Positions 663 to 23,199 of a stretch of 23,199 bases of DNA are shown here, piece by piece. The position numbers and the translations under genes are program-made. The notes beneath the pieces are model-generated. The model saw only the letters and a list, made by a program, of their open reading frames with translations, was not told where the DNA came from and did no database searches. Source of the stretch: a virus; IMG/VR virus record IMGVR_UViG_3300003852_000023, positions 16,395-39,593 of that record; one strand, written 5' to 3'. Positions within the stretch are counted from its first letter, which is position 1, and each line of letters starts with the position of its first letter.

Positions 663-1787
663 TTGATTAGGCAACCCGTCAATAACGTTCTATTTCATGA
701 TGACGTGGATGGCATCATTTCAGCTTCAATTTTTTTATATGCTAATAAAGATGCCAATTATCGTCTTTACCCAGTATCATCCTCGTTGCGAGGAGAAAAA
801 TTTTCCACACTATTTCATTCAATTCCAAGGCATAAAACCAGCAAACGAATCATTCTTGATTATCAGTATGAAAAAGATTCAGACTTATGGATAGATCATC
901 ATTTTAATCCTGAGTTTGGAGAAAGCGCAATTAAAAATGAAAATATTATTTATGATCCTAAAGCCAAATCTGCAACATGTTTAGTGGCTAATTATATAAA
1001 ACAATCTAAATCAGGATTGCTTACAAGCTTCGATTTATGGATGGCTGATATGATAGATTCCGGAGAATATAATAGCGTAGAACAAATATTTAGAGACAAA
1101 AATCCAATGATGAGATTAAGGGCATATTTAGAAAAAGTATATCATGCGACATCAGAAATGGCGTGTTGTAGAATAGTAGAAGTAATAGCCAATTCTAATA
1201 TGAATATAGAAGAAGCGTTATTTAAACTAAAAATAGGAACATATTATGTTACTGAACTTGAAAAAAATGCTCTACAAATAAAAGACTCAATTGTAGTGGT
1301 AAAAAATATATCCATAGTCAGACAAAAACGAATGAATCAATTTCCTAGATATTCTGAATATTTTGTTTTACCTGATATTAAATATTCATTAAGAATAACG
1401 CCAGTGGGCAATAAAAACATATATATCCAATTGGGTTTTAATAATTGGCAGAAAAAATCAAATAAATTTAATATTGGAAAAATGTTTACTGAAATGCAGG
1501 ATAAATATATTATTCACGGAGGCGGTCATTTTAATGTAGGGGCAGCTTCTTTGAAAGAAGAAAATCTTGAACAATTTATAGACAAAATAACTGAAACACT
1601 AAATGAGGAGGATTCCATGGAAAAATACGCTGTTGATTCGACAGATCCGATCGAACAGAAGGCTAACGAAATGATAAAAGAAGGTTCAGCCAAAACGATC
1701 GCAGAAGCAAGAGAAAAATCATCTATTCAAATTCCATTGGAGGGTAGTAATGGACCAAGCGATAGTGGAGAAAAGGAAATTCAGTAA
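663..1787 (+). CDS. DHH/DHHA1-family phosphoesterase (nanoRNase/RecJ/c-di-AMP PDE superfamily)
   Basis: This encodes 374 aa from TTG 663. The frame is open back to ATG 627, but that ATG lies inside a TATAAT box and lacks an SD, while TTG 663 has GGGAGG four bases upstream and puts motif I in the usual place near the N-terminus. Visible motifs are FHDDVDGIISA (residues 11-21, the metal-binding HxDxDG of DHH motif I), an Asp in IILDYQ (66), WIDHHFNP (76-83, the DHH signature) and GGGHFNVGAAS (286-296, the DHHA1 substrate-binding motif). The family uses Mn2+ to hydrolyse phosphodiester bonds in short oligonucleotides, cyclic dinucleotides or ssDNA; which substrate applies here cannot be read from sequence. 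The last 38 bp overlap the RT gene, implying translational coupling. The final 56 residues look like an extra C-terminal module with its own internal SD-ATG. Confidence 0.85.
   Translation: MIRQPVNNVLFHDDVDGIISASIFLYANKDANYRLYPVSSSLRGEKFSTLFHSIPRHKTSKRIILDYQYEKDSDLWIDHHFNPEFGESAIKNENIIYDPKAKSATCLVANYIKQSKSGLLTSFDLWMADMIDSGEYNSVEQIFRDKNPMMRLRAYLEKVYHATSEMACCRIVEVIANSNMNIEEALFKLKIGTYYVTELEKNALQIKDSIVVVKNISIVRQKRMNQFPRYSEYFVLPDIKYSLRITPVGNKNIYIQLGFNNWQKKSNKFNIGKMFTEMQDKYIIHGGGHFNVGAASLKEENLEQFIDKITETLNEEDSMEKYAVDSTDPIEQKANEMIKEGSAKTIAEAREKSSIQIPLEGSNGPSDSGEKEIQ
1605..1787 (+). other. Internal SD and in-frame ATG within the DHH gene: possible 56-aa C-terminal product
   Basis: GAGGAGG at 1605-1611 is followed after five bases by ATG at 1617, in frame with the DHH gene. 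It is a better initiation signal than that of the DHH gene itself. Translation from here would give a 56-aa acidic/polar peptide starting MEKYAVDSTDPIEQKANEMI and ending at 1787. The DHHA1 domain is complete just before this point, so the segment is either a fused appendage or also made as a separate small protein. Which of these happens in the cell cannot be decided from sequence. Confidence 0.4.
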
Positions 1788-2994
1788 TTTTAATTTCGAA
1801 CAAATTTTTGGAAAAAAAGTTGATTTTGTAGATTCCATTTTAGCTAATAAAGAAAAACATATTCGAAGATTTGCAATTCCCAAACATGATGGAACCCATA
1901 GAATAATATTAGCGCCGGACGGGGATTTAAAATACATTCAAAAAATGGTGTATTATAAATTTCTCAAAAGATATGCGTGTCATAATGCGGCTCATGGATT
2001 TGTTCCTAAGAGAGGAATAGTCACAAATGCCGCCCTGCATGTTGGCGCTAAGAGTGTTGGAAAAATAGATGTCAAAAAGTTCTTCGATACAATTTCAGAG
2101 AAACATTTACAGAATTGTTTATTTGGTAATAAAAATATTTGTAGATATTGCAGCAAATATGCCAGAATGCTTGATGATAAATGTAATCCTTCGCTTTATC
2201 ATAATAAAACCCATAATTATGATTATAAATGCGAAGAAATAAAAGCTGTATTTATTCCTAAATATTGTGAAGAAACCGGTTACGAATCATTATTTAAAAG
2301 AATAATTGATATTTGCACTTACAATGGTTTTACAGCACAGGGATTCCCGACCTCCCCAATGCTGGCAAATATAGTTATGCGTGGGTTCGATATAGCCATG
2401 TCGGAGCATTGTGAAAAAGAAGGAATAATATATTCCAGATACGCAGACGACCTGGCTTTCAGTAGCAAAATATTAAATCCTGAAGAATTAAAAGAAAAAA
2501 CCAAATCAAAAGCATATAGATTGTTGTGGGCTTTTGGTTTTGCGGCTAAAAGAGAAAAAACAAGATATCGCTCTTGTGGGGGCAGATTGAAGGTGTGCGG
2601 AGTTGTTGTTAATCAAAAGACATCAGTCCAAAAAGATGATGTTCATTTATTCAGGGCCAAAGTTCATCATGCTATTCACAAGTTTCCAGAAAGAACGACT
2701 AAAACCAGATTAAAAGAATTAAAAGGATGGTGCTCTTTTCTGAAATCAGTAGATAGCATTAAAGGCGATAAATATATGCAACAATTGACCGAATTTGAAA
2801 GTAAAAAATTTCCCAATACTGGAAATGGTAAAAAGAAAAAGAAAAAGAAAAATAATCATATCGAAGAGTGCGTTAGCTATCCTTCTGCAGAAAATATGAC
2901 TCCATGCGCCACTGTTACCTGTTCAAGTGCGCCCAGTAGTAACACTACCTATATTTTCAATTCCACTACTCCTGCTCCTGAAAATATATTATAG
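1750..2994 (+). CDS. Retron-type reverse transcriptase
   Basis: This encodes 414 aa from ATG 1750, preceded by GGAGGG seven bases upstream and overlapping the end of the DHH gene. RT motifs appear in order: HGFVPKRGIVTNAALH (82-97, containing the retron-typical NAxxH), KIDVKKFFDTIS (105-116, catalytic Asp107), QGFPTSPMLANIV (197-209), YSRYADDLAFS (228-238, catalytic YADD) and KVCGVVVN (281-288), which aligns with the retron VTG motif as VCG. No maturase X domain or HNH domain follows, which argues against a group II intron. QGxPTSP argues against a DGR RT. Between motif A and the QG motif lies an extra segment with Cys131, Cys134, Cys145 and Cys161, possibly zinc-binding. The last ~55 residues are a lysine run followed by a Ser/Thr/Pro-rich tail. 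Known retron RTs copy the msd part of a partner RNA into branched ssDNA; a candidate RNA lies at 3717-3911. Confidence 0.88.
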   Translation: MDQAIVEKRKFSNFNFEQIFGKKVDFVDSILANKEKHIRRFAIPKHDGTHRIILAPDGDLKYIQKMVYYKFLKRYACHNAAHGFVPKRGIVTNAALHVGAKSVGKIDVKKFFDTISEKHLQNCLFGNKNICRYCSKYARMLDDKCNPSLYHNKTHNYDYKCEEIKAVFIPKYCEETGYESLFKRIIDICTYNGFTAQGFPTSPMLANIVMRGFDIAMSEHCEKEGIIYSRYADDLAFSSKILNPEELKEKTKSKAYRLLWAFGFAAKREKTRYRSCGGRLKVCGVVVNQKTSVQKDDVHLFRAKVHHAIHKFPERTTKTRLKELKGWCSFLKSVDSIKGDKYMQQLTEFESKKFPNTGNGKKKKKKKNNHIEECVSYPSAENMTPCATVTCSSAPSSNTTYIFNSTTPAPENIL

Positions 2995-2996
2995 TT

Positions 2997-3470
2997 ATGG
3001 AATTTACAATATACACCGATGGCGGTTGTTCTGGAAACAAAAGAGACGCCAATTGCCCTGGGGCCTGGGCTTATATAGTTCTTGACCCCGGCAATAATAT
3101 ATTTATACAGAATTCAAATAGAGAAGAAAATACAACTAATAACAGAATGGAAATGACGGCGGCTATTAATGCCTTGAAAGATTTAATTGAAAAAATTAAA
3201 GATCTTGGACTAGCAATAAATAAACAAGATGTAATAATATATACCGATTCTATGTATATGTCCGGCAATTTTAATGATTATCTTCTTATCTGGAAAAAAA
3301 ATAACTGGATAAAATCAGATCGCGCCCCAGTTATTAATTCAGATTTATGGAAACTGATAGATCTATATTCTCACCAATTTGGTTCGTTTGAATTTATATG
3401 GGTTAAGGGACATTCTGTAAATCCATATAATCAAAAAGTAGATCAAATGGTTCGCGATCATTTATACTAA
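2997..3470 (+). CDS. rnhA: Ribonuclease HI
   Basis: This encodes 157 aa, starting two bases after the RT stop codon. There is no strong SD, so coupling to RT translation is likely. Type I RNase H motifs are complete: YTDGGCSGN (6-14, Asp8), NNRMEMTAAINAL (48-60, Glu52), IYTDSMYM (81-88, Asp84), WVKGHS (135-140, His139) and Asp149 near the C-terminus. Length fits a single-domain bacterial enzyme. It cleaves RNA in RNA-DNA hybrids. In known retrons the host RNase HI trims the RNA template during msDNA synthesis, so a cassette-borne copy next to the RT suggests independence from the host enzyme. That role is inferred; general removal of replication primers is the alternative. Confidence 0.9.
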   Translation: MEFTIYTDGGCSGNKRDANCPGAWAYIVLDPGNNIFIQNSNREENTTNNRMEMTAAINALKDLIEKIKDLGLAINKQDVIIYTDSMYMSGNFNDYLLIWKKNNWIKSDRAPVINSDLWKLIDLYSHQFGSFEFIWVKGHSVNPYNQKVDQMVRDHLY

Positions 3471-3479
3471 GGAGGATGA

Positions 3480-3716
3480 ATGACTAAAAAAAAGCAATTA
3501 AAAGAATATGATGATATGGAGCGCGTTATTGATGCGGGAGCGCAATTAGTAAAAGCGTTGCTTCCATTCGCTATGAAACAACCTGAAAAACCAAAACGAT
3601 CTAATAAAGAAAAAGCTAAACCAGTATCGTCTAAAAAGACGACAGCCAAATTGTCTAAAAATATCGTTCCTATGATAAAGCCTGCCACTCAGTCCAATTC
3701 TGCGACGGTGGCATAA
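3480..3716 (+). CDS. Small lysine-rich protein of unknown function in the RT cassette
   Basis: This encodes 78 aa, starting nine bases after RNase H behind a strong SD (AAGGAGGATGA). The first ~35 residues are predicted helical (YDDMERVIDAGAQLVKALLP). The remainder is rich in Lys, Pro, Ser and Thr (KPKRSNKEKAKPVSSKK) and probably disordered. The basic tail would suit nucleic acid binding. Its stop codon (3714-3716) directly abuts the inverted-repeat arm that opens the structured RNA at 3717. It could be an accessory or effector protein of the retron-like unit, or an unrelated small phage protein. I do not recognise the family. Confidence 0.7.
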   Translation: MTKKKQLKEYDDMERVIDAGAQLVKALLPFAMKQPEKPKRSNKEKAKPVSSKKTTAKLSKNIVPMIKPATQSNSATVA

Positions 3717-3911
3717 AATACAGAAGTAGGGTTTATACCCTTATTCAATGTGTTTCGCATTGATGATTTCAAAATAGATTGCTGAACTTTTGGGAGCGCC
3801 AAAAGTTCTTTGTTTCAATCTCGTCTGGTACGCGCAAGCTCCGCTCGCGCTCAAGGACCAGCCTATGGAGCCTAGGCTGCCCCGACCCCAGCCGAGGTCT
3901 CGTTCTGTATT
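3717..3911 (+). ncRNA. Candidate retron msr-msd RNA
   Basis: AATACAGAA (3717-3725) is exactly complementary to TTCTGTATT (3903-3911), like the a1/a2 repeats that close retron RNAs. The base after the 5' arm is G3726, where retrons place the branching guanosine. Stem-loops follow: GGGT/ACCC (3729-3740); TCAATG/CATTGA (3745-3763) with loop TGTTTCG, resembling the GTTTC-loop msr hairpin of retron Ec86; and a perfect 10-bp GAACTTTTGG/CCAAAAGTTC (3784-3808). A GC-rich block (about 3818-3898) can form a long outer stem (3818-3828 with 3888-3898, one mismatch) holding hairpins at 3832-3850 and 3859-3879; I take this as msd, giving roughly 85-90 nt of cDNA. It follows the last protein gene directly and precedes a terminator. 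The unusual point is its place downstream of the RT. Confidence 0.68.
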
Positions 3912-3944
3912 AAAAGACCCTCAGAATATGAGGGTCTTTTTTTT
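3912..3944. terminator. Bidirectional rho-independent terminator
   Basis: GACCCTCA (3916-3923) pairs perfectly with TGAGGGTC (3929-3936) around a five-base loop. Four A residues lie before the stem and eight T residues after it, so the stem can extend by A-T pairs and works as a terminator in either direction. It ends the plus-strand RT cassette and stands at the end of the minus-strand virion operon, whose last stop codon (3943-3945) touches it. Confidence 0.9.
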
Positions 3945-4215
3945 AGCTATGAGTAGTAAAATTAGATACCCTGCGCCATAATCCAGGCTGTTCAACCTGT
4001 TCTTCTTTTTTATGGCGTTTTTTCTTTTCAGGATAATTGACGCTTATCTGAGGAATATAAAAAAGGTTTGCGACATCAGGTTCATCTATATTCTGAGCGA
4101 TCCTTTTAGGGAGTTTTTCTTTAAAAGGAGAAAGAATAAATGACGCCAAACTCTTTAAAGGAGAGGCAAGTTCTTCACCAATCTTCTCAAAATACCCTGC
4201 ATTTAAAGATATCAT
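3943..4215 (-). CDS. Small protein of unknown function at the end of the virion operon
   Basis: This encodes 90 aa. Its ATG overlaps the stop codon of the upstream 744-aa gene (ATGA), a strong sign of a coupled real gene. The N-terminus contains AGYFEKIGEEL, resembling the shorter FEKIA/FEKVA form of the recurring motif. The middle is mixed hydrophobic and Pro-rich (SPLKSLASFILSPFKEKLP), and a basic run (EKKKRHKKEE) lies near the C-terminus. It ends at the bidirectional terminator. No family is recognised. Confidence 0.65.
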   Translation of the reverse strand: MISLNAGYFEKIGEELASPLKSLASFILSPFKEKLPKRIAQNIDEPDVANLFYIPQISVNYPEKKKRHKKEEQVEQPGLWRRVSNFTTHS

Positions 4216-6446
4216 GCCATGCTCATTTTAAGATTTTCCAAACCATTAATTACATCGGACAAACCTTTAATAGAATTCTTACACGCAGTCTCATCAATCT
4301 CGCTTAATCCCATACGAGACGCGACCAATAATTGAGAAAGATTGGCTAACACATCTTTCATAGCATTGATGTTTTCTATATAATTAGAAATGCTTTCTTC
4401 ATTGATAAAATTAAGTGAAAGAATCACATCAACAGTTTTAGGATCTGTCAATATACTGGCTTCTTTAATCAAATCCCTGCGTAATGAGTAAGCTATCTCT
4501 TTAAGCACGCTTGTTACGCGGGCCTGTTTTTCCATATCCTTCACTAAATCAAATTTTACATAATCATCACGCACACCATAAATAAATACGTTTTTATTCT
4601 TTTCATTATAATTAGCAAATTTCTGAAATGCCACAGTCATTGCGCGATCGCTGGATGTTTTATCCATACCCATAACATTCAAGGCGGCTCTTGTTTCAGC
4701 TGTGGTTAATATTTTACCATTATTAATACCGGCAAGTTTCTTCATAGGTTCAAAAGCCTTACCTTCAATATGATAACCTACCTCTTTACCATTAGAAGAT
4801 ACCCACAAAGCTATCTTACTGATGTTCTGTTCTTCATACATTTTCTGAACAGGAAGATCTGGCCTCATAAAATCACTTTTATTAAATGGTTTCATAAAAC
4901 CTTTATTTACTATTAAAGCCCCTTCAGGAAACAGGTAAATATTAGGAGTGTTTCCAACAATCATTTTATACATGGGATCTTTTACTTTACATACTTTCTG
5001 AATCGAAGCTACATTTGCAGGAATTATTACATTTTCCCTTGAAGAATAAACATGCGAATTTTGGACCATATACTTTTTAAAATTACCTTTGAATTCAACA
5101 CATTCATAAGAAGTTCCTGCTCCATAAATTACAAATAGCCCCTGATTCCAATCGTCTATATAGGAATTGTTTTCAATATATTTTCCACCATCACCATGGC
5201 GATCCTTACCCTGTTCCATCGTATTAAAACCGGCAAATAATTTATCAGAACCGTCATTCCTGTTGTTGGGATTTACATTAATAAAATCATCGGTAGTAAC
5301 GAGAGAAAGCATCTTAACTGCCTTTTCGACAGCCTCAGGAGTATTCATCATTTTTGAACCATAGAAACCTATGCCGGTCTTATCATAATCATCAAAAGTG
5401 CTATAAAATTTTCCACAAAGAGAAAGGAAAACTTGATCTCTACGAGCACGCACTTCTTTCAATTTTTGCTCAGGAGTCTGCGTATCAGATTTTGGAATAT
5501 CAGGAGTACATACTGATAAATTTGTTATACGCTCTTTATCAACCAAATCAAGCAAAATACCTATAACGGGTTTGCCCATTTTGCTGGCAATAAATCTCTC
5601 TGCCATATTTTCACCTGATTCAAGAAAATCTTCCATTGAAGGATACTGATATATTCTCGCTTCCGCTACACACGGCGGCTGCAGAGGTATTAAAGAAGAC
5701 ACATCAAACATATCTGAATCTATAGTCGTAATGGCTCTTTTAGAATCTATAACACCATTCAAATCGATTACTCCTTTGCGGTGCTCATTAGGAGTAACCT
5801 CTTCACGCTGATAGCTCTTAAGCTGAACTAAATTAGTTGCAAGATCGCCGGTATTGTCATGAAATGCAGAACTAACGTCGGGCATTCCAACAAGAGTCTC
5901 AGCAAATTTTTCAAGATCCTCTTTCTTAGCCAACATATGCCAATTCGACATCTTTGCGAATGGCGGATAAAGCGATTCTTCAGGCGCGTCATAAAGATTG
6001 ATTGATTGCTTAGGCTGAACCCCTCCTGGAGCTTTGACAAGCTGATACCCACGCGCCTGATCCCACCTGTTCTCCAATGTAGCTACCTGGTCGGCCATCA
6101 ATACCTTTTTTATATTAATTTCATTTGCCGGATAATAAACATCTTTACCTTCAACTTTATAAATAAATACATCAAACGGACTTAACTTATAATCATTCAC
6201 TATGACCGGAAAATTAATCTGTTTACCATTGAAGAACACCACGATGCTTCCCTTAGCGTATCCTTTATTTTCATCAATATTGGTGATGATAACATTTACG
6301 CCTATTTCTTTAGGAAGATAATTAATTTCTTCATAGAAAGCTTTAAGAATAGTTTCATTCCAGTCATTGATATTCTTGGAAAGTTCTATGGTGGCAATTT
6401 TTTCAAATTTGGGTTGTGGAATAACAGCGTCCTTCAATGATTTCAT
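4212..6446 (-). CDS. Large phage protein of unknown function, probably virion-associated
   Basis: This encodes 744 aa, with SD AAGGAT ten bases or so before ATG 6446. It is soluble-looking mixed alpha/beta sequence with no obvious membrane segment. The N-terminus (KDAVIPQPKFEKIATIE) carries FEKIA, matching the short form of the recurring N-terminal motif. It follows the spike gene after a 95-bp AT-rich gap and is coupled to the small gene at 3943-4215. No catalytic motif is recognised. The context (last large gene of the tail operon) and the N-terminal motif point to a virion component or an injected protein, but this is inference. Confidence 0.7.
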   Translation of the reverse strand: MKSLKDAVIPQPKFEKIATIELSKNINDWNETILKAFYEEINYLPKEIGVNVIITNIDENKGYAKGSIVVFFNGKQINFPVIVNDYKLSPFDVFIYKVEGKDVYYPANEINIKKVLMADQVATLENRWDQARGYQLVKAPGGVQPKQSINLYDAPEESLYPPFAKMSNWHMLAKKEDLEKFAETLVGMPDVSSAFHDNTGDLATNLVQLKSYQREEVTPNEHRKGVIDLNGVIDSKRAITTIDSDMFDVSSLIPLQPPCVAEARIYQYPSMEDFLESGENMAERFIASKMGKPVIGILLDLVDKERITNLSVCTPDIPKSDTQTPEQKLKEVRARRDQVFLSLCGKFYSTFDDYDKTGIGFYGSKMMNTPEAVEKAVKMLSLVTTDDFINVNPNNRNDGSDKLFAGFNTMEQGKDRHGDGGKYIENNSYIDDWNQGLFVIYGAGTSYECVEFKGNFKKYMVQNSHVYSSRENVIIPANVASIQKVCKVKDPMYKMIVGNTPNIYLFPEGALIVNKGFMKPFNKSDFMRPDLPVQKMYEEQNISKIALWVSSNGKEVGYHIEGKAFEPMKKLAGINNGKILTTAETRAALNVMGMDKTSSDRAMTVAFQKFANYNEKNKNVFIYGVRDDYVKFDLVKDMEKQARVTSVLKEIAYSLRRDLIKEASILTDPKTVDVILSLNFINEESISNYIENINAMKDVLANLSQLLVASRMGLSEIDETACKNSIKGLSDVINGLENLKMSMA

Positions 6447-11121: not shown

Positions 11122-11298
11122 CTATACCTTATTAATTGTTTTAATGCCGCTTATCGGTTTTGTAGGCACTGGATTAAATGGAGGAGCAGGTTCTTCTTCA
11201 GGCGCCTCTCCAATAGTAGGCTCAACGTTGTCTTCAGCAATTTTACGAAGTTCATCTTCAAAGGCTGCTTGTTTAATCTGTTCCATAATGTTTTTCAT
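11122..11298 (-). CDS. 58-aa acidic protein with the consensus N-terminal motif
   Basis: The ATG (11298-11296) overlaps the stop of the upstream gene as ATGA, and the frame runs 58 codons to TAG at 11124-11122. It begins MKNIMEQIKQAAFEDELRKI, the cleanest copy of the recurring motif, followed by a short acidic, Pro-rich tail (EAPEEEPAPPFNP) ending in a basic stretch. Almost half the protein is the motif, so it is either a carrier of the tag with little cargo or a regulator of whatever recognises the tag. Coupling to both neighbours supports a real gene despite its size. Confidence 0.75.
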   Translation of the reverse strand: MKNIMEQIKQAAFEDELRKIAEDNVEPTIGEAPEEEPAPPFNPVPTKPISGIKTINKV

Positions 11299-11486
11299 AT
11301 ATATTTTTTTCTTTTTAAGGATAGTGGCACAACCACTTGTGGTTTCCCTTTTAATATATTCTGTTCCGCAATGGTAGGAGGTTTTGAAAAAGCCCTTCTA
11401 CCCAAAGCTTGTTCAGTAACGGAAACTGCTTTATCGGCAAAAAAAGATATTTTCTCAAATTCTTTAGATGATAGTTTTGATAACAT
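11295..11486 (-). CDS. Small phage protein with short-form FEKI motif
   Basis: This encodes 63 aa. Its ATG shares one base with the sigma factor stop (TAATG), and its stop overlaps the next start (ATGA), so it is embedded in a coupled run. The N-terminus MLSKLSSKEFEKISFF is a short-form version of the recurring motif. The rest is mixed, with a basic C-terminus (SLKRKKYI). No family is recognised. Confidence 0.65.
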   Translation of the reverse strand: MLSKLSSKEFEKISFFADKAVSVTEQALGRRAFSKPPTIAEQNILKGKPQVVVPLSLKRKKYI

Positions 11487-12175
11487 TATCTCATCTCCCG
11501 AATTCTTTGCGACATATCCTGTTTCATTCTATGAACGGCCATTTCATTTATATTTAATTTTTGAGCTATTGCTTTATTATTTAATATTGGTCGTCCGGCG
11601 TATCCAAAAGTATACTCAAAAATTACCTTTTGTTTCGGATCTAATTCTCCATACAAATAATCCGCAAGGTCCCTATCTCTAGAAGGTTTTTGCGAAGCAT
11701 TGCCATAGAAATCAAAAGGCGCGCCTGAAGCTGTAACTTCACCTTTTAATTCATTCAACATCCTGCCAACTTCCTTGCGGTCCCAAACAAGCTCTTCAGC
11801 CAATTCATCTACTGCAGGCTCCCTGCCCAACTGATCCGTTAAATTGTCCTTAACAGTTAAGAATGTAGCTTTTTTAAGATTTCTGTTCTCAGGTATATGT
11901 CCGGACATCAAACTTTCAGTTGCTATACGTTGCACTTTCTGCAGGTTGTTCCAGATATGGGTCGTCGGAACAGTTCCTTTATTTGGATCGTATGATTCAA
12001 AAGCTTTAATCAGTTGCGTTGTCGCATTGGCTCTCAATGTCGCAGGAGCTAATCCTACAGTACGATATTTATTAACAACTGAATTAACAACGGGCTGATA
12101 ACGAATAATTAAATTGGCGAAAAGATTGGGATCTCTCGTTTTTTGCCATTCAACTAATTGTTCTTTATCATCCAT
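11486..12175 (-). CDS. Phage-encoded sigma-70-family RNA polymerase sigma factor
   Basis: This encodes 229 aa. A region-2-like segment is visible at about 17-90 (LFANLIIRYQPVVNSVVNKY, then AFESYDPNKGTVPTTHIWNN). Region 3 is at about 93-145, with the characteristic LGREPAVDELAEEL (116-129) following HIPENRNLKKATF. Region 4 is at about 170-229 (LDPKQKVIFEYTFGYAGRP ... NKAIAQKLNINEMAVHRMKQ), including the helix-turn-helix that reads the -35 element. Region 1.1 is absent, as in other compact phage or alternative sigmas. It would redirect host RNA polymerase to phage promoters, most likely for late virion genes, given that it lies inside the structural operon. It lacks the KIA-type motif. Confidence 0.85.
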   Translation of the reverse strand: MDDKEQLVEWQKTRDPNLFANLIIRYQPVVNSVVNKYRTVGLAPATLRANATTQLIKAFESYDPNKGTVPTTHIWNNLQKVQRIATESLMSGHIPENRNLKKATFLTVKDNLTDQLGREPAVDELAEELVWDRKEVGRMLNELKGEVTASGAPFDFYGNASQKPSRDRDLADYLYGELDPKQKVIFEYTFGYAGRPILNNKAIAQKLNINEMAVHRMKQDMSQRIREMR

Positions 12176-12179
12176 TATT

Positions 12180-12587
12180 TTATAAACCTATTTTCTTAAC
12201 ATTCAGTTTATCCTGTGCTTTCATTAATTTAAATTCTTTACTGGCGCCTGGATATTTAAGTCTATCTATCAAACGACCAATACCATATCCTCCAGCCGCT
12301 CCAGCACCAGTCAAAACAGCAGTGCCCACAGGGAAAAATTTTCCTTTTAATAGCAGGGTAGGCAAAGTAAGTGCAAGCCCACTAGCCGCTCCAATGCCTG
12401 AAGAAGTATTTAGAATTTTATTATATGCTGGATACTTCTTTTTAAATTCGCCCATATTTTTCTTATATTCATCTGAAGCTTCTACAAGTTTTTGCATTTT
12501 ATCCGACGGAATACCATGACCAAAAGCCAGCTTATTAAGTTCATTCATACAGGCGTCTTCCCTGATCTGTTTCATTACATTATCCAT
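12180..12587 (-). CDS. Small motif-bearing protein with two Gly/Ala-rich hydrophobic segments
   Basis: This encodes 135 aa, with SD AAGGAG nine bases before ATG 12587. The N-terminus MDNVMKQIREDACMNELNKL is a copy of the recurring motif (KQIxxxAxxNELxKLA). A helical charged region follows, then hydrophobic segments at about 62-80 (SSGIGAASGLALTLPTLLL) and 86-104 (PVGTAVLTGAGAAGGYGIG), compatible with membrane insertion. The C-terminus is basic. It lies four bases upstream of the sigma gene. Function unknown. Confidence 0.72.
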   Translation of the reverse strand: MDNVMKQIREDACMNELNKLAFGHGIPSDKMQKLVEASDEYKKNMGEFKKKYPAYNKILNTSSGIGAASGLALTLPTLLLKGKFFPVGTAVLTGAGAAGGYGIGRLIDRLKYPGASKEFKLMKAQDKLNVKKIGL

Positions 12588-19971: not shown

Positions 19972-20298
19972 TTACATGTTATGTTGAACATTATACAGAT
20001 GTGACGTTACTTTCTCAGCGCCACCCATGCCTGCCCCAATATATCCACCAGCCTTACCTCCAGCAATTGCTCCAGCCAACATAGATGCCCCAATAACTGC
20101 TGCGGAATAAGGATTCATTTTAGGATATCTTTTCTCAACCAATTTCATAATCTTATACATGGGCAATCCTGCCGCACTACCGCCAATGATAGCTCCCCAC
20201 ATGCCGCCTTTACCAGCTTCGATGGCAACTGGGTTTTTGGCTATCTTTTCCATTTCATTAAAAAACGCTGCGTATTTAGTCTGTTTCAAATCCATCAT
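19972..20298 (-). CDS. Small motif-bearing Gly-rich membrane-prone protein
   Basis: This encodes 108 aa, with SD AGGAGG before two adjacent ATGs (20298 and 20295). The N-terminus DLKQTKYAAFFNEMEKIAKN is a strong copy of the recurring motif. Hydrophobic Gly/Ala-rich segments lie at about 33-48 (MWGAIIGGSAAGLPMY) and 65-92 (AAVIGASMLAGAIAGG, then GGYIGAGMGGA), a glycine-zipper-like composition. It follows the tRNA-like gene and precedes the tape measure gene. Function unknown; the architecture is shared with three to four other small proteins here. Confidence 0.75.
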   Translation of the reverse strand: MMDLKQTKYAAFFNEMEKIAKNPVAIEAGKGGMWGAIIGGSAAGLPMYKIMKLVEKRYPKMNPYSAAVIGASMLAGAIAGGKAGGYIGAGMGGAEKVTSHLYNVQHNM

Positions 20299-20315: not shown

Positions 20316-20390
20316 TGGTAGCAGGATCCTGAGTTGAACAGGTTACCCGAGATTATGACTCTCGGTAAGATGCCGACCTTCCACCTGCGG
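20316..20390 (-). tRNA. tRNA-like gene, anticodon CAT (Met-type)
   Basis: On the minus strand this 75-nt segment has a 5-bp anticodon stem CGAGA/TCTCG (extendable by C-G) with the seven-base loop GTCATAA, anticodon CAT. It has a D-arm GAAG...CTT with GG in the loop, a T-arm CCTG-TTCAACT-CAGG, and acceptor pairs GCAGG/CCTGC. The 3' end is an encoded ACCA. The arms are imperfect: the outer acceptor pairs do not match, D-stem and T-stem each have a mismatch, and position 21 is not A. It lies in the gap between two coupled genes of the operon. It could be a divergent functional phage tRNA-Met (elongator, initiator-like or Ile2-like cannot be told apart) or one that is decaying. Confidence 0.62.
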
Positions 20391-20394
20391 TAAA

Positions 20395-21921
20395 TTATTT
20401 AATACTTTTCCATTCTTTTCTAGATTTTAATTGAGACTGCAACAACCCTCTTAATAAATCTTTTTTATTTTTTTCTCCAAATAATTCTGCTGAATATTTT
20501 AAATCTTTAGGCAAAGATTTTTTAATATGTCTTTCCATATCTTTTTTTAAAAGCAAGTCGTTTTTTACTTCTGGATTAACCATATTCATCATGGTCTCTA
20601 ATACACTTTTCTTATAAGCTTTAGTTAATAATTTTGAACTAAGCGCAATTTTCTCTAATTCATTTTCAAACGCTGCGTTTTTAATCTGTTCCAACGCTGC
20701 GGTTTTCTCAGGCAAATCCTTGCCCTTAGCCCTCTTCGCCCACTTCATCGCCTTACCCTCAGGAAGCTCGCCACGCTCTTCAGCAGCAAAAGCCCAACGA
20801 CGTTGAGATTCAGAAACAGGATGTTTCTTTTTCTTCGCTAATTTAATAAGATCCAACATACTTACTCCTTGGTTAAGATTGAATTCGTTTTCAAACGCTG
20901 CTTGTTTAACTTGTTTTGCGTCTTCATTTAAAAATAATTTCCTTGCCCCATATGCCAATGCGGGAGCGGAAGCTGGTAATAAATATGAAGAATTTATTAA
21001 TAACATTTTAGCGCCGCCTCCATGAGTTAATGCTTTTCCCAATCCACCATACATTTTGGATAAACCATGAATACCACGCATGGATGCCAATCCCTCTTCA
21101 ATTAATGCGGGCATACCAACAGCCGTCCCAATAATAGCCGCTTTTTTAGCTGTTTTATCTTTTTTAGCAAAAGCTGCTGTTCCAGTTGAAGCCGCAAAAG
21201 CCAAAGGGCTTAATGATCTTATTGCCATATAAGGCGTCGTTAATTTTAATTTATTTAATAATTTAAAATTTTTATGATGCCCCATTTCATGAGACATTAT
21301 CGCAGGATCTGAACCTAACATATGAACGCCGGAAGGCATATCCACAAATTTGAATTTATTAATTTTGTTAAATATTCCTTTAAATTTCGGCAAATAACCA
21401 GCTACCATTCTCTCTGCCACCGGTGTATTAAGATGAACACCCACATCTTCTACATTCATAGCCTTTTTTAATTTATCTATAACATCAGATTTAACATTTA
21501 ATTGTTGTTCTCCCATTGACATCCTTGAGTTCATTGCCATTGGGGTTAAAGCGAGCATTCCAGCGGATTGCGGGAGCCCTGCTGCTAAATAGGCGCCAAC
21601 CCGTCTTCCAAAATGATATTTTTCTTTATCTGTCTTTTTTTCTTTTGCTAATTTTTCTAATTCATTAATAAACGCCGCTTGTTTAATTTGTTCCAACATA
21701 TTAACTCCTTTAAATTGTGGTGGTTCAGGGACATCCTGATTATATTTAATTTCCTCATAAGTTATAGTTCCATCTTTCAATTTTTTCTTATTATCTTTCA
21801 TCTCTTTTTCAGCCTCTTTAATCTTCTTATTTAATTTAAATTTCTTATGATCGACGTACTTCTTTAATTCAGATTCATTTACGATAGGATCATGAGCCAA
21901 TTTATATAATAAATTATTCAT
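20395..21921 (-). CDS. Composite protein: N-terminal module, gluzincin-like metallopeptidase, C-terminal module with motif copies
   Basis: This encodes 508 aa, starting three bases after the upstream stop with a GGGG SD-like run. Module 1 (1-74) is highly charged and helical. Module 2 (75-354) begins with the motif MLEQIKQAAFINELEKLAKE. It contains HEMGHH (211-216), a zinc metallopeptidase HExxH, then hydrophobic segments and EEGLAS (275-280), which could supply the third ligand as in gluzincins. It ends with a partial motif (QVKQAAFENEF, 338-348). Module 3 (355-508) starts MLDLIKLAKKKKHPVSESQR; 'PVSESQRRWAF...ELPEGKA' resembles short domains common in phage proteins, followed by a full motif copy, LEQIKNAAFENELEKIA (410-426). 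Met75 and Met355 each have an SD in good position. It may be one multi-domain protein, a precursor cut at the motifs, or nested products. Confidence 0.7.
   Translation of the reverse strand: MNNLLYKLAHDPIVNESELKKYVDHKKFKLNKKIKEAEKEMKDNKKKLKDGTITYEEIKYNQDVPEPPQFKGVNMLEQIKQAAFINELEKLAKEKKTDKEKYHFGRRVGAYLAAGLPQSAGMLALTPMAMNSRMSMGEQQLNVKSDVIDKLKKAMNVEDVGVHLNTPVAERMVAGYLPKFKGIFNKINKFKFVDMPSGVHMLGSDPAIMSHEMGHHKNFKLLNKLKLTTPYMAIRSLSPLAFAASTGTAAFAKKDKTAKKAAIIGTAVGMPALIEEGLASMRGIHGLSKMYGGLGKALTHGGGAKMLLINSSYLLPASAPALAYGARKLFLNEDAKQVKQAAFENEFNLNQGVSMLDLIKLAKKKKHPVSESQRRWAFAAEERGELPEGKAMKWAKRAKGKDLPEKTAALEQIKNAAFENELEKIALSSKLLTKAYKKSVLETMMNMVNPEVKNDLLLKKDMERHIKKSLPKDLKYSAELFGEKNKKDLLRGLLQSQLKSRKEWKSIK
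20857..20870 (-). promoter_or_regulatory. In-frame internal SD and start codon (Met355 of the 508-aa frame)
   Basis: On the minus strand, AAGGAGTAAGTATG (20870-20857) places an SD six bases before ATG inside the 508-codon frame, where it reads QGVSM. The downstream product would be 154 aa, with a LIKLAKKKK start and a full motif copy about 55 residues later. The SD sequence is almost identical to the one at Met75. Confidence 0.55.
21697..21710 (-). promoter_or_regulatory. In-frame internal SD and start codon (Met75 of the 508-aa frame)
   Basis: On the minus strand, AAGGAGTTAATATG (21710-21697) is a near-ideal SD with six-base spacing before ATG. It lies within the open 508-codon frame, where it reads as KGVNM. 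The protein downstream begins with the recurring motif, exactly as free-standing genes in this window do. This suggests the metallopeptidase module was once, or still is, translated from its own start. Confidence 0.6.
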
Positions 21922-21924
21922 AGT

Positions 21925-23199
21925 TTATTTCCCCAGAATAACTTCACGAAATTTACCAGGTTCTATACCCTTCTTAAGAAACGTACTCAAATCAATCCTC
22001 TTACTATCAGGCATACCTTTCTTTTCCCACGCAGACAATAATCTATCATTACGATGATGAGTAAAAATGGCCACCCTTTTACCTTGATATTTGTTTTTAA
22101 TATCCTTAAGAAAATCCAAATATCTATTTTTAAAATCATTAAAAGATTCGCCACCCTCCACCTTCTTATTAGGAGAACTGGCGTAATCAGCAATAACATT
22201 CAAAACGTCCTTTGAATGCTGTCCAGACAATTTACCCAAATTCCAAGGACGAAGTTGTTTGGTTCTTTTTACAGGAACACCAATCTTATTTGAAAGAGCT
22301 TTAGCTGTATCTACAGCCCTTATTAAATCTGAAGAAAGAATGACATCAACATCCTTATTTACAAGCTTTTTAGCAGCCTTCCTAGCCTCTTCCTGACCAT
22401 GCTCGTCCAAAGGAATATTCTTCCAGCCTCGTATCTTATCACCATCAGCATTAAGTTTCGTTTCACCATGTCTGACTAAAATAAGTTTTGTAGGCATAGA
22501 TTCACCTGATGCTATTTTGTTTAATTCATTTATAAAGGCATTATATTTGATTTGATTAAAGTCCATAGATTGTTTCTCCAAATTCTTTTCTACATGCATA
22601 TCATAATAAGCGGGCGCTCTTAATGCACCTGAAGCAAACTGCTGTTGTGATTTAACCCTTGCAACCAATCCAATATAATCTTCAGGATTCTTCAACATGT
22701 CCTTTTTCATCGGACGATCGAAACCTGTTCCTACGTTACCAACTATCTTTCCCTTTGGTGTTAAACTATATTCAAAACCACCAGCTTCATTCTTTTCCTT
22801 ACCAGACTTGTCAATCGCAGGATAAACACTCCTTATATAAACATCATAATTATCACGAAACTTCAATTTTGCAGGATTACCTGATTCCTGCCTTACATCC
22901 CATTGTACCACACCCTCTTTAGTATCAGGATGTTTACCTAATTTAATTGAATTAACAAGTCTCTGTTTCTGCTTTTCAGTAAAGGCTGTATCCGCAACTC
23001 GTAAAGCAGGCACTTGTGATTCAATCTTTTTTAACAAATCAAATTTGACTGCATAAGGCTCATTGGATACGTCTTTGCCTTTGAATTTGACTATATCATA
23101 AATATATGGTTGAAGTTTACCTAATTCTTTCTGTTTCTCAAGACTTTTATTTACACTCGCGTTTAATATTCCACCAACCTGTTCTGCAGCCATTGGTTT
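21925..23199 (-). CDS. ATP-dependent DNA ligase C-terminal part fused to a histidine phosphatase (5' end outside window)
   Basis: The frame is open to the window edge; Met at 23193 is probably not the true start, because the ligase active-site motif KxDG is missing and must lie upstream. Residues are counted from that Met. Ligase part: LQPYIYDIVKFKG (27-39, motif III-like), KEGVVQWD (92-99, motif IV), AKLKFRDNYDVYI (108-120, motif V) and GNVGTGFD (152-159) in the OB domain. At 210-228 lies MDFNQIKYNAFINELNKIA, the recurring motif. Then comes a histidine phosphatase/phosphoglycerate mutase-type domain: LILVRHGETKLNADG (237-251, phospho-acceptor His), SSDLIRAVDTAKAL (287-300), GGES (347-350) and FTHHR (377-381). 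Ligase joins nicks in phage DNA; the phosphatase substrate is unknown. Met210 has GGAG nine bases upstream, so a separate phosphatase product is possible. Confidence 0.78.
   Translation of the reverse strand, partial: KPMAAEQVGGILNASVNKSLEKQKELGKLQPYIYDIVKFKGKDVSNEPYAVKFDLLKKIESQVPALRVADTAFTEKQKQRLVNSIKLGKHPDTKEGVVQWDVRQESGNPAKLKFRDNYDVYIRSVYPAIDKSGKEKNEAGGFEYSLTPKGKIVGNVGTGFDRPMKKDMLKNPEDYIGLVARVKSQQQFASGALRAPAYYDMHVEKNLEKQSMDFNQIKYNAFINELNKIASGESMPTKLILVRHGETKLNADGDKIRGWKNIPLDEHGQEEARKAAKKLVNKDVDVILSSDLIRAVDTAKALSNKIGVPVKRTKQLRPWNLGKLSGQHSKDVLNVIADYASSPNKKVEGGESFNDFKNRYLDFLKDIKNKYQGKRVAIFTHHRNDRLLSAWEKKGMPDSKRIDLSTFLKKGIEPGKFREVILGK

Follow-up and report, generated by a model that had tools for sequence, protein, structure and literature searches.

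A gene set that ends in a structured RNA

The stretch of DNA analyzed here (23,199 nucleotides, referred to below as the window) covers positions 16395-39593 of a 39.6-kb virus record, IMGVR_UViG_3300003852_000023. Within it, an operon on the + strand (663-3940) carries genes for a DHH/DHHA1 protein, a retron-type reverse transcriptase (RT), an RNase HI and a 78-aa protein, followed by a structured RNA and a terminator. The DHH and RT genes overlap, and gaps of 2 nt and 9 nt separate the RT gene from the RNase H gene and the latter from the small ORF. The main features are as follows:

594-628, + strand: promoter-like element preceding the operon, GTTATTT-N15-AATAACTATAAT, also an inverted repeat
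663-1787, + strand: DHH/DHHA1 phosphoesterase (nanoRNase/RecJ-like), TTG start after GGGAGG, ORF open from 627
1617-1787, + strand: conserved MEKY-VD peptide, encoded in frame within the 3' end of the DHH gene, its internal start accompanied by AGGAGG
1750-2994, + strand: retron-type RT with YADD, invariant NAxxH and a four-Cys insertion (PADLOC, profile, fold, alignment)
2997-3470, + strand: RNase HI, catalytic D8, E52, D84 and D149 present
3480-3716, + strand: small ORF, 78 aa, with a weakly conserved segment
3717-3911, + strand: whole msr-msd-like non-coding RNA (folding, covariation, covariance model)
3912-3940, + strand: intrinsic terminator of the operon, hairpin plus T-run

Upstream of the DHH gene there is only a short promoter-like stretch. 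The element at 594-628 is the sole mismatch-free match in the 39.6-kb record, and a similar one (GTTATTT-N15-AATAAC) lies 5' of the DHH gene in most relatives; we infer from the sequence that it is a promoter. To the left of the window, the record encodes a terminase with a GpA-type ATPase domain and a capsid-like protein, and contains an intein-like insertion. Locus L002 (5880-8897, minus strand) encodes a protein with an apparent intein (CFINPEFPILTIEGY ... SHNC). Elsewhere in the window, all on the minus strand, are a tRNA-Met (cat; 20316-20389) amid head or structural genes, a sigma-70 region 3/4-like protein (11486-12175) in the structural cluster, and a family of 49-nt repeats (11237-11285, 12526-12574, 20240-20288, 20645-20693, 20870-20918, 21647-21695 and 22511-22559). 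The repeats encode a common peptide, approximately QIKxAAFxNELEKIA, at the start of or within otherwise differing proteins; it might act as a propeptide or as a signal for targeting to the head.

Sequence, profile, fold and the invariant NAxxH all identify the RT as that of a retron. In PADLOC its best model was RT_XIII (1.6e-63), with RT_III-A and RT_II-A at 1e-56. The best match of the RT profile was the Ec86 RT (5e-43); against structures, retron RTs scored from 1e-43 to 1e-25, group II intron RTs did no better than 1e-16, and DRT2 gave 1e-10. The top 18 hits of the fold search were all retron RTs. The retron-type RT originally recognized from the sequence has solved retrons as its top matches in both sequence and fold. 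In region X, N93, A94 and H97 of the NAxxH motif are invariant in 19 sequences (alignment A3). Region Y has VCG or ICG in most members instead of VTG, the Cys being invariant. VTG is found in 14 of 16 validated RTs, and RT-Eco6 and RT-Vch2 deviate as well (PMC6868368), so the motif is typical rather than strictly defining. The RT also contains an insertion at about residues 124-178 that is helical, confidently modelled and missing from the other phage RTs of alignment A1. Its four invariant Cys (131, 134, 145 and 161) probably form a zinc site.

The RNase HI matched Pfam RNase_H at 2.8e-32, and the family profile matched E. coli RNase HI structures at 1e-33. The catalytic residues are kept in most members, with an active-site change in L024, and the gene lies in the same operon in nearly all. 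Known retrons require host RNase H1 for processing of the RT-DNA, for its length and for defence (PMC8989520); given this dependence, an RNase H within the operon fits a retron with its own processing enzyme.

Pfam matches of the DHH protein to DHH and DHHA1 were below cut-off. The motifs H-x-D-x-D-G and DHH are conserved in nearly all members and lost in L027. The best folds for its AlphaFold model (pLDDT 86.5) were PggH and PAP phosphatase, followed by RecJ-type nucleases, and the fold also resembles nanoRNases. No match to the protein was found in isolated phages. The small ORF encodes 40-100 aa in relatives, with weak conservation of the segment F-x3-(I/V)DA-x3-F-x-K-x3-P. A peptide with the consensus MEKYxVDxxDPxE is conserved in most members, often with a purine-rich (Shine-Dalgarno-like) stretch upstream, and in L026 (at about 5918) and L028 its frame differs from that of the DHH gene. 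The pattern suggests that the MEKY peptide is translated separately. PADLOC gave no convincing effector match for the DHH protein, RNase H or small ORF, i.e., no known retron effector; the RNase H matched NsnC with an E value of 0.009 only.

Structure and covariation of the RNA

The stop codon of the small ORF (3714-3716) directly precedes the RNA, and the terminator hairpin and T-run follow at once, as in the preliminary description. The RNA has the following parts:

3717-3725, + strand: a1 arm, AATACAGAA, covarying with a2
3726, + strand: candidate branching G at the a1 junction, AAG in most members
3728-3741, + strand: SL1, 98.7% of pairs kept over 15 members, arms identified by hand
3745-3763, + strand: SL2, 8-bp stem with a UUU triloop, covarying, matching the recognition hairpin of the Ec86 RT
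3772-3815, + strand: P3, long variable hairpin (third msr hairpin or outer part of the msd), a similar hairpin there in most relatives' folds
3818-3898, + strand: GC-rich branched msd-like domain, the likely template, seen in folds, with inner helix arms set by hand in 13 members
3880-3891, + strand: conserved block CCCCGACCCCAG, nearly invariant in alignment A2
3903-3911, + strand: a2 arm, TTCTGTATT, covarying with a1

The perfect 9-bp inverted repeat described previously is present, and both the minimum free energy (MFE) and the centroid structures close on it. The MFE of 3717-3911 was -68.9 kcal/mol (z = -5.0; 0 of 200 shuffled sequences as good), and z was -6.5 for 3710-3945. In a 401-nt context, seven of the nine a1/a2 pairs had probabilities of 0.94-0.98, and seven of the eight SL2 pairs had probabilities of 0.89-0.98. 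G3726 does follow the 5' arm directly, with a G at the same junction in the members compared, and by analogy it may be the branching residue. The second hairpin does resemble the msr hairpin of Ec86, as had been proposed, but not by way of the TGTTTCG loop then drawn; an 8-bp stem capped by a UUU triloop describes it better, and it is predicted to be the msr hairpin that the RT recognizes. The higher GC content of the following block was borne out (59% at 3801-3900 versus approximately 30%-40% around it). In place of the long msd-like stem envisaged there, a GC-rich branched domain with paired inner arms is predicted; its outer helix is short and not uniquely defined.

By our estimate, about 0.3 9-bp repeats at such a spacing are expected per 400 nt by chance. 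Since the repeat alone is thus not significant, conservation among relatives decides whether the RNA is real. The same RNA occurs at the same place in at least 15 related viral contigs; it lies directly 3' of the small ORF and 5' of the terminator in the window, L009-L026 and L028, some of these contigs being near-copies. The distance from the stop codon of the small ORF to the conserved G downstream is 7-21 nt in all members with both defined. MFE z scores were -4.6 to -11.8 in 15 longer family sequences.

When the family was aligned with MAFFT and folded with RNAalifold, unguided, a1/a2 and SL2 were recovered and almost nothing else, which bears out the compensatory changes that the preliminary description had proposed looking for. 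Two-sided changes occurred in 13 of about 14-15 pairs of this unguided structure. Its covariation score was 0.831, against 0.322 in shuffled and at most 0.20 in slid controls, and 88.8% of its paired cells could pair, against 64.6% (shuffled) and 32%-45% (slid). SL2 has a stem of 7-9 bp in relatives, with a loop of UUU, AUU, GUU, UAA, UUA, AAU, UUC or similar. In SL1, SL2 and the inner msd arms as assigned by hand, pairing is likewise kept despite sequence change. Arms outside P1 (a1/a2) and SL2 were assigned by hand, which is biased towards structure, and the argument therefore rests on the unguided structure with its shuffled and slid controls. Covariation of the full msd was not recovered by MAFFT/RNAalifold because the middle of the RNA is too variable. 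The most conserved stretch of the RNA, CCCCGACCCCAG, is almost invariant. There was no support for a second site in the phage genome marked by this C-rich block: in the 7 of 10 records containing it (up to one mismatch), it occurs once, inside the RNA.

A covariance model of the RNA (R1), built from 14 members, found the RNA in family loci, including near-copies outside the model, and in 0 of about 40 other retron loci; it gave no significant match in L026-L030. In L026 and L028 the RNA is reduced to about 85-90 nt, i.e., a1, SL1, SL2, one short hairpin and a2. No RNase H gene was found in these two contigs, and the two reductions may be connected. L027 has the RT, with no RNA found. L029 keeps an SL2-like hairpin and CCCCGACTC and matches the RNA loosely; in L030 the match is also loose and the RNA doubtful. 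The Rfam search, i.e., the covariance-model check suggested earlier, gave no matching family, and we found no description of the element in the open-licence literature.

A fixed locus beside the terminase

Single-sequence locus scans with the window RT found no relatives; alignments were needed. A scan with alignment A1 yielded 22 viral contigs whose RTs are 38%-69% identical to that of the window, the next best being at 30%. The best RT matches in prokaryotic genomes were at 31% and those in isolated phages at about 30%. DHH and RT genes are present in all 22 contigs and an RNase H match in 20. Where both flanks are present in L009-L030, the operon is located between the gene for the large terminase subunit (TerL) and a homologue of the 744-aa protein encoded on the opposite strand at 4212-6446 of the window, which is a structural gene.

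A second scan, based on TerL, yielded 35 contigs. Of these, 18 extend for at least 7 kb on the operon side, and every one has DHH, RT and RNase H; the operon is missing from no TerL contig that is long enough there. Because the two scans recovered mostly the same contigs, their counts are not independent. RT and TerL identities/distances were correlated (Spearman 0.84; Mantel, 1 of 2000), and the RTs of the family form a monophyletic clade (support 100/96). By these sequence comparisons, the operon descends with the terminase. Its fixed place and this shared descent point to a function that is old, under selection and inherited vertically. The capsid has distant similarity to those of Salmonella phage Arash and Vibrio phages D69, D148 and D181, none of which is among the RT matches. 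In this lineage of large, uncultured bacterial viruses, the retron-like operon looks like a permanent part and not a borrowed defence gene.

The tree also contains a second group of retron-type RTs from viral contigs (L031-L036, L038, L039 and L043-L045, with the RT at about 6001 in most). Several of these contigs exceed 130 kb, and some have long structured leaders 5' of the RT and neighbouring genes that look like those for AAA ATPase and radical-SAM proteins.

Interpretation and comparison with known retrons

With a probability of roughly 0.78, we take 3717-3911 to be the msr-msd RNA of a retron that the phage encodes, forming the 3' end of its own operon mRNA. The DHH nuclease, RT, RNase H, small ORF and RNA form a single operon, which we regard as a phage-core retron with its RNA at the 3' end and RNase H in cis. 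The points against the retron reading are VCG in place of VTG, the position of the RNA 3' of the RT, the lack of a known effector, the RT of L027, for which no RNA was found, the loose matches in L029 and L030 and the short outer helix of the msd. The position, which had been flagged as unusual, is the same in every relative in which the RNA was found. The operon genes overlap or are separated by 2-9 nt, which leaves no room near the RT for another msr-msd, in agreement with the original placement.

The machine probably makes a small RNA-linked DNA. A phage promoter would transcribe the DHH-RT-RNase H-small ORF-RNA unit as a single transcript, in which a1 would pair with a2 and the RT would hold SL2 by its 8 bp and triloop. 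By analogy with Ec86, cDNA synthesis would be primed from the 2'-OH of G3726 and start immediately 5' of a2, running into the GC-rich domain and across 3818-3898. The phage's own RNase H would then remove the template and set the end point, trimming again being modelled on Ec86, and the DHH enzyme might trim or clear RNA or DNA oligonucleotides. This would yield a branched RNA-DNA, its DNA part being roughly 80-130 nt long. The stop codon of the small ORF borders a1, so RNA folding may be coupled to translation, and translation of the ORF could tune a1/a2 folding. The phage might use the msDNA in its own cycle.

Studied retrons are optional bacterial anti-phage systems, and phages are known to carry defence genes. 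Here, the most likely role is instead a standing function in the phage's own cycle, such as counter-defence, exclusion of rivals or genome handling. We propose, tentatively and at slightly less than even odds, that this lineage turned a complete retron into a fixed core set beside its packaging genes, with msDNA serving the viral life cycle rather than host immunity. Somewhat less probable, although a serious contender and compatible with a retron, is a defence module against competing phages, with the small ORF, the MEKY peptide or the DHH protein as effector. The small ORF product could, by its size, be a toxin; however, defence genes usually have a patchy distribution and are mobile, whereas the present locus occurs in every testable member, at the same place, and descends with the terminase.

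Three further explanations concern the RNA and RT themselves. It is unlikely, but deserves weight, that the RNA is a structured partner of the RT other than a retron template, i.e., a scaffold, a regulator or a template for some other, DRT2-like synthesis. A free template would not need a C-rich block as conserved as this one, and the position, gene set and altered VTG are unlike known retrons; nevertheless, the RT profile matches retrons far better than DRT2, and a1/a2, the junction G and the SL2 triloop are all retron features. Very improbably, the RNA is an ordinary 3' UTR or small RNA with processing and terminator hairpins, tied to the RT by operon position only: it does abut a terminator, and hairpins are common at 3' ends, but a1 and a2 covary over a long range, family members share a multi-helix architecture and the RNA is strictly associated with the RT family. 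A diversity-generating retroelement or group II intron, both carried by phages and with related RT folds, is highly improbable given the ranking of their structures below retrons for this RT, the lack of any template/variable repeat (TR/VR) pair within the window and the lack of an intron family in the Rfam search.

If the retron reading is correct, a retron that is universal and vertically inherited in a phage lineage would imply msDNA that serves the virus, raising the question of its use. It would also provide an msDNA system that is self-contained, RNase H being encoded in cis, and whose RNA is arranged in a new way (3' location, and a minimal form of about 85-90 nt in L026 and L028), useful for retron engineering and annotation. 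Searches examining only the region upstream of the RT would miss such an RNA.

Among known systems, DRT2 and other defence-associated RTs also combine an RT with a structured non-coding RNA, but belong to a different RT clade, and we know of no a1/a2-SL2 anatomy in DRT2-type RTs. Klebsiella phage 4LV2017 and Escherichia phage pro147 also have retron-type RTs, which, compared by RT alone, are only 24%-25% identical. Type XIII retrons, likewise compared by RT only, provide the best PADLOC model for the window protein, other types being nearly as good. In the standard retron cassette the RNA is upstream of the RT, an arrangement that is usual rather than definitional, whereas in the phage element it lies 3' of the small ORF wherever found. 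The closest solved RT is that of Retron-Eco1 (Ec86; type II-A). Unlike Ec86, the phage element has its RNA 3' of the RT, two genes away, RNase H and DHH proteins in cis, no effector of the Ec86 kind, and an RT with a four-Cys insertion and VCG for VTG. Like Ec86, its RNA has an a1/a2 repeat, a G at the a1 junction, an msr hairpin of 8 bp with UUU and a predicted GC-rich msd-like stem. In Ec86, the hairpin bound by region Y of the RT consists of an 8-bp stem and a UUU loop (PMC6868368), which is the geometry of SL2 as well.
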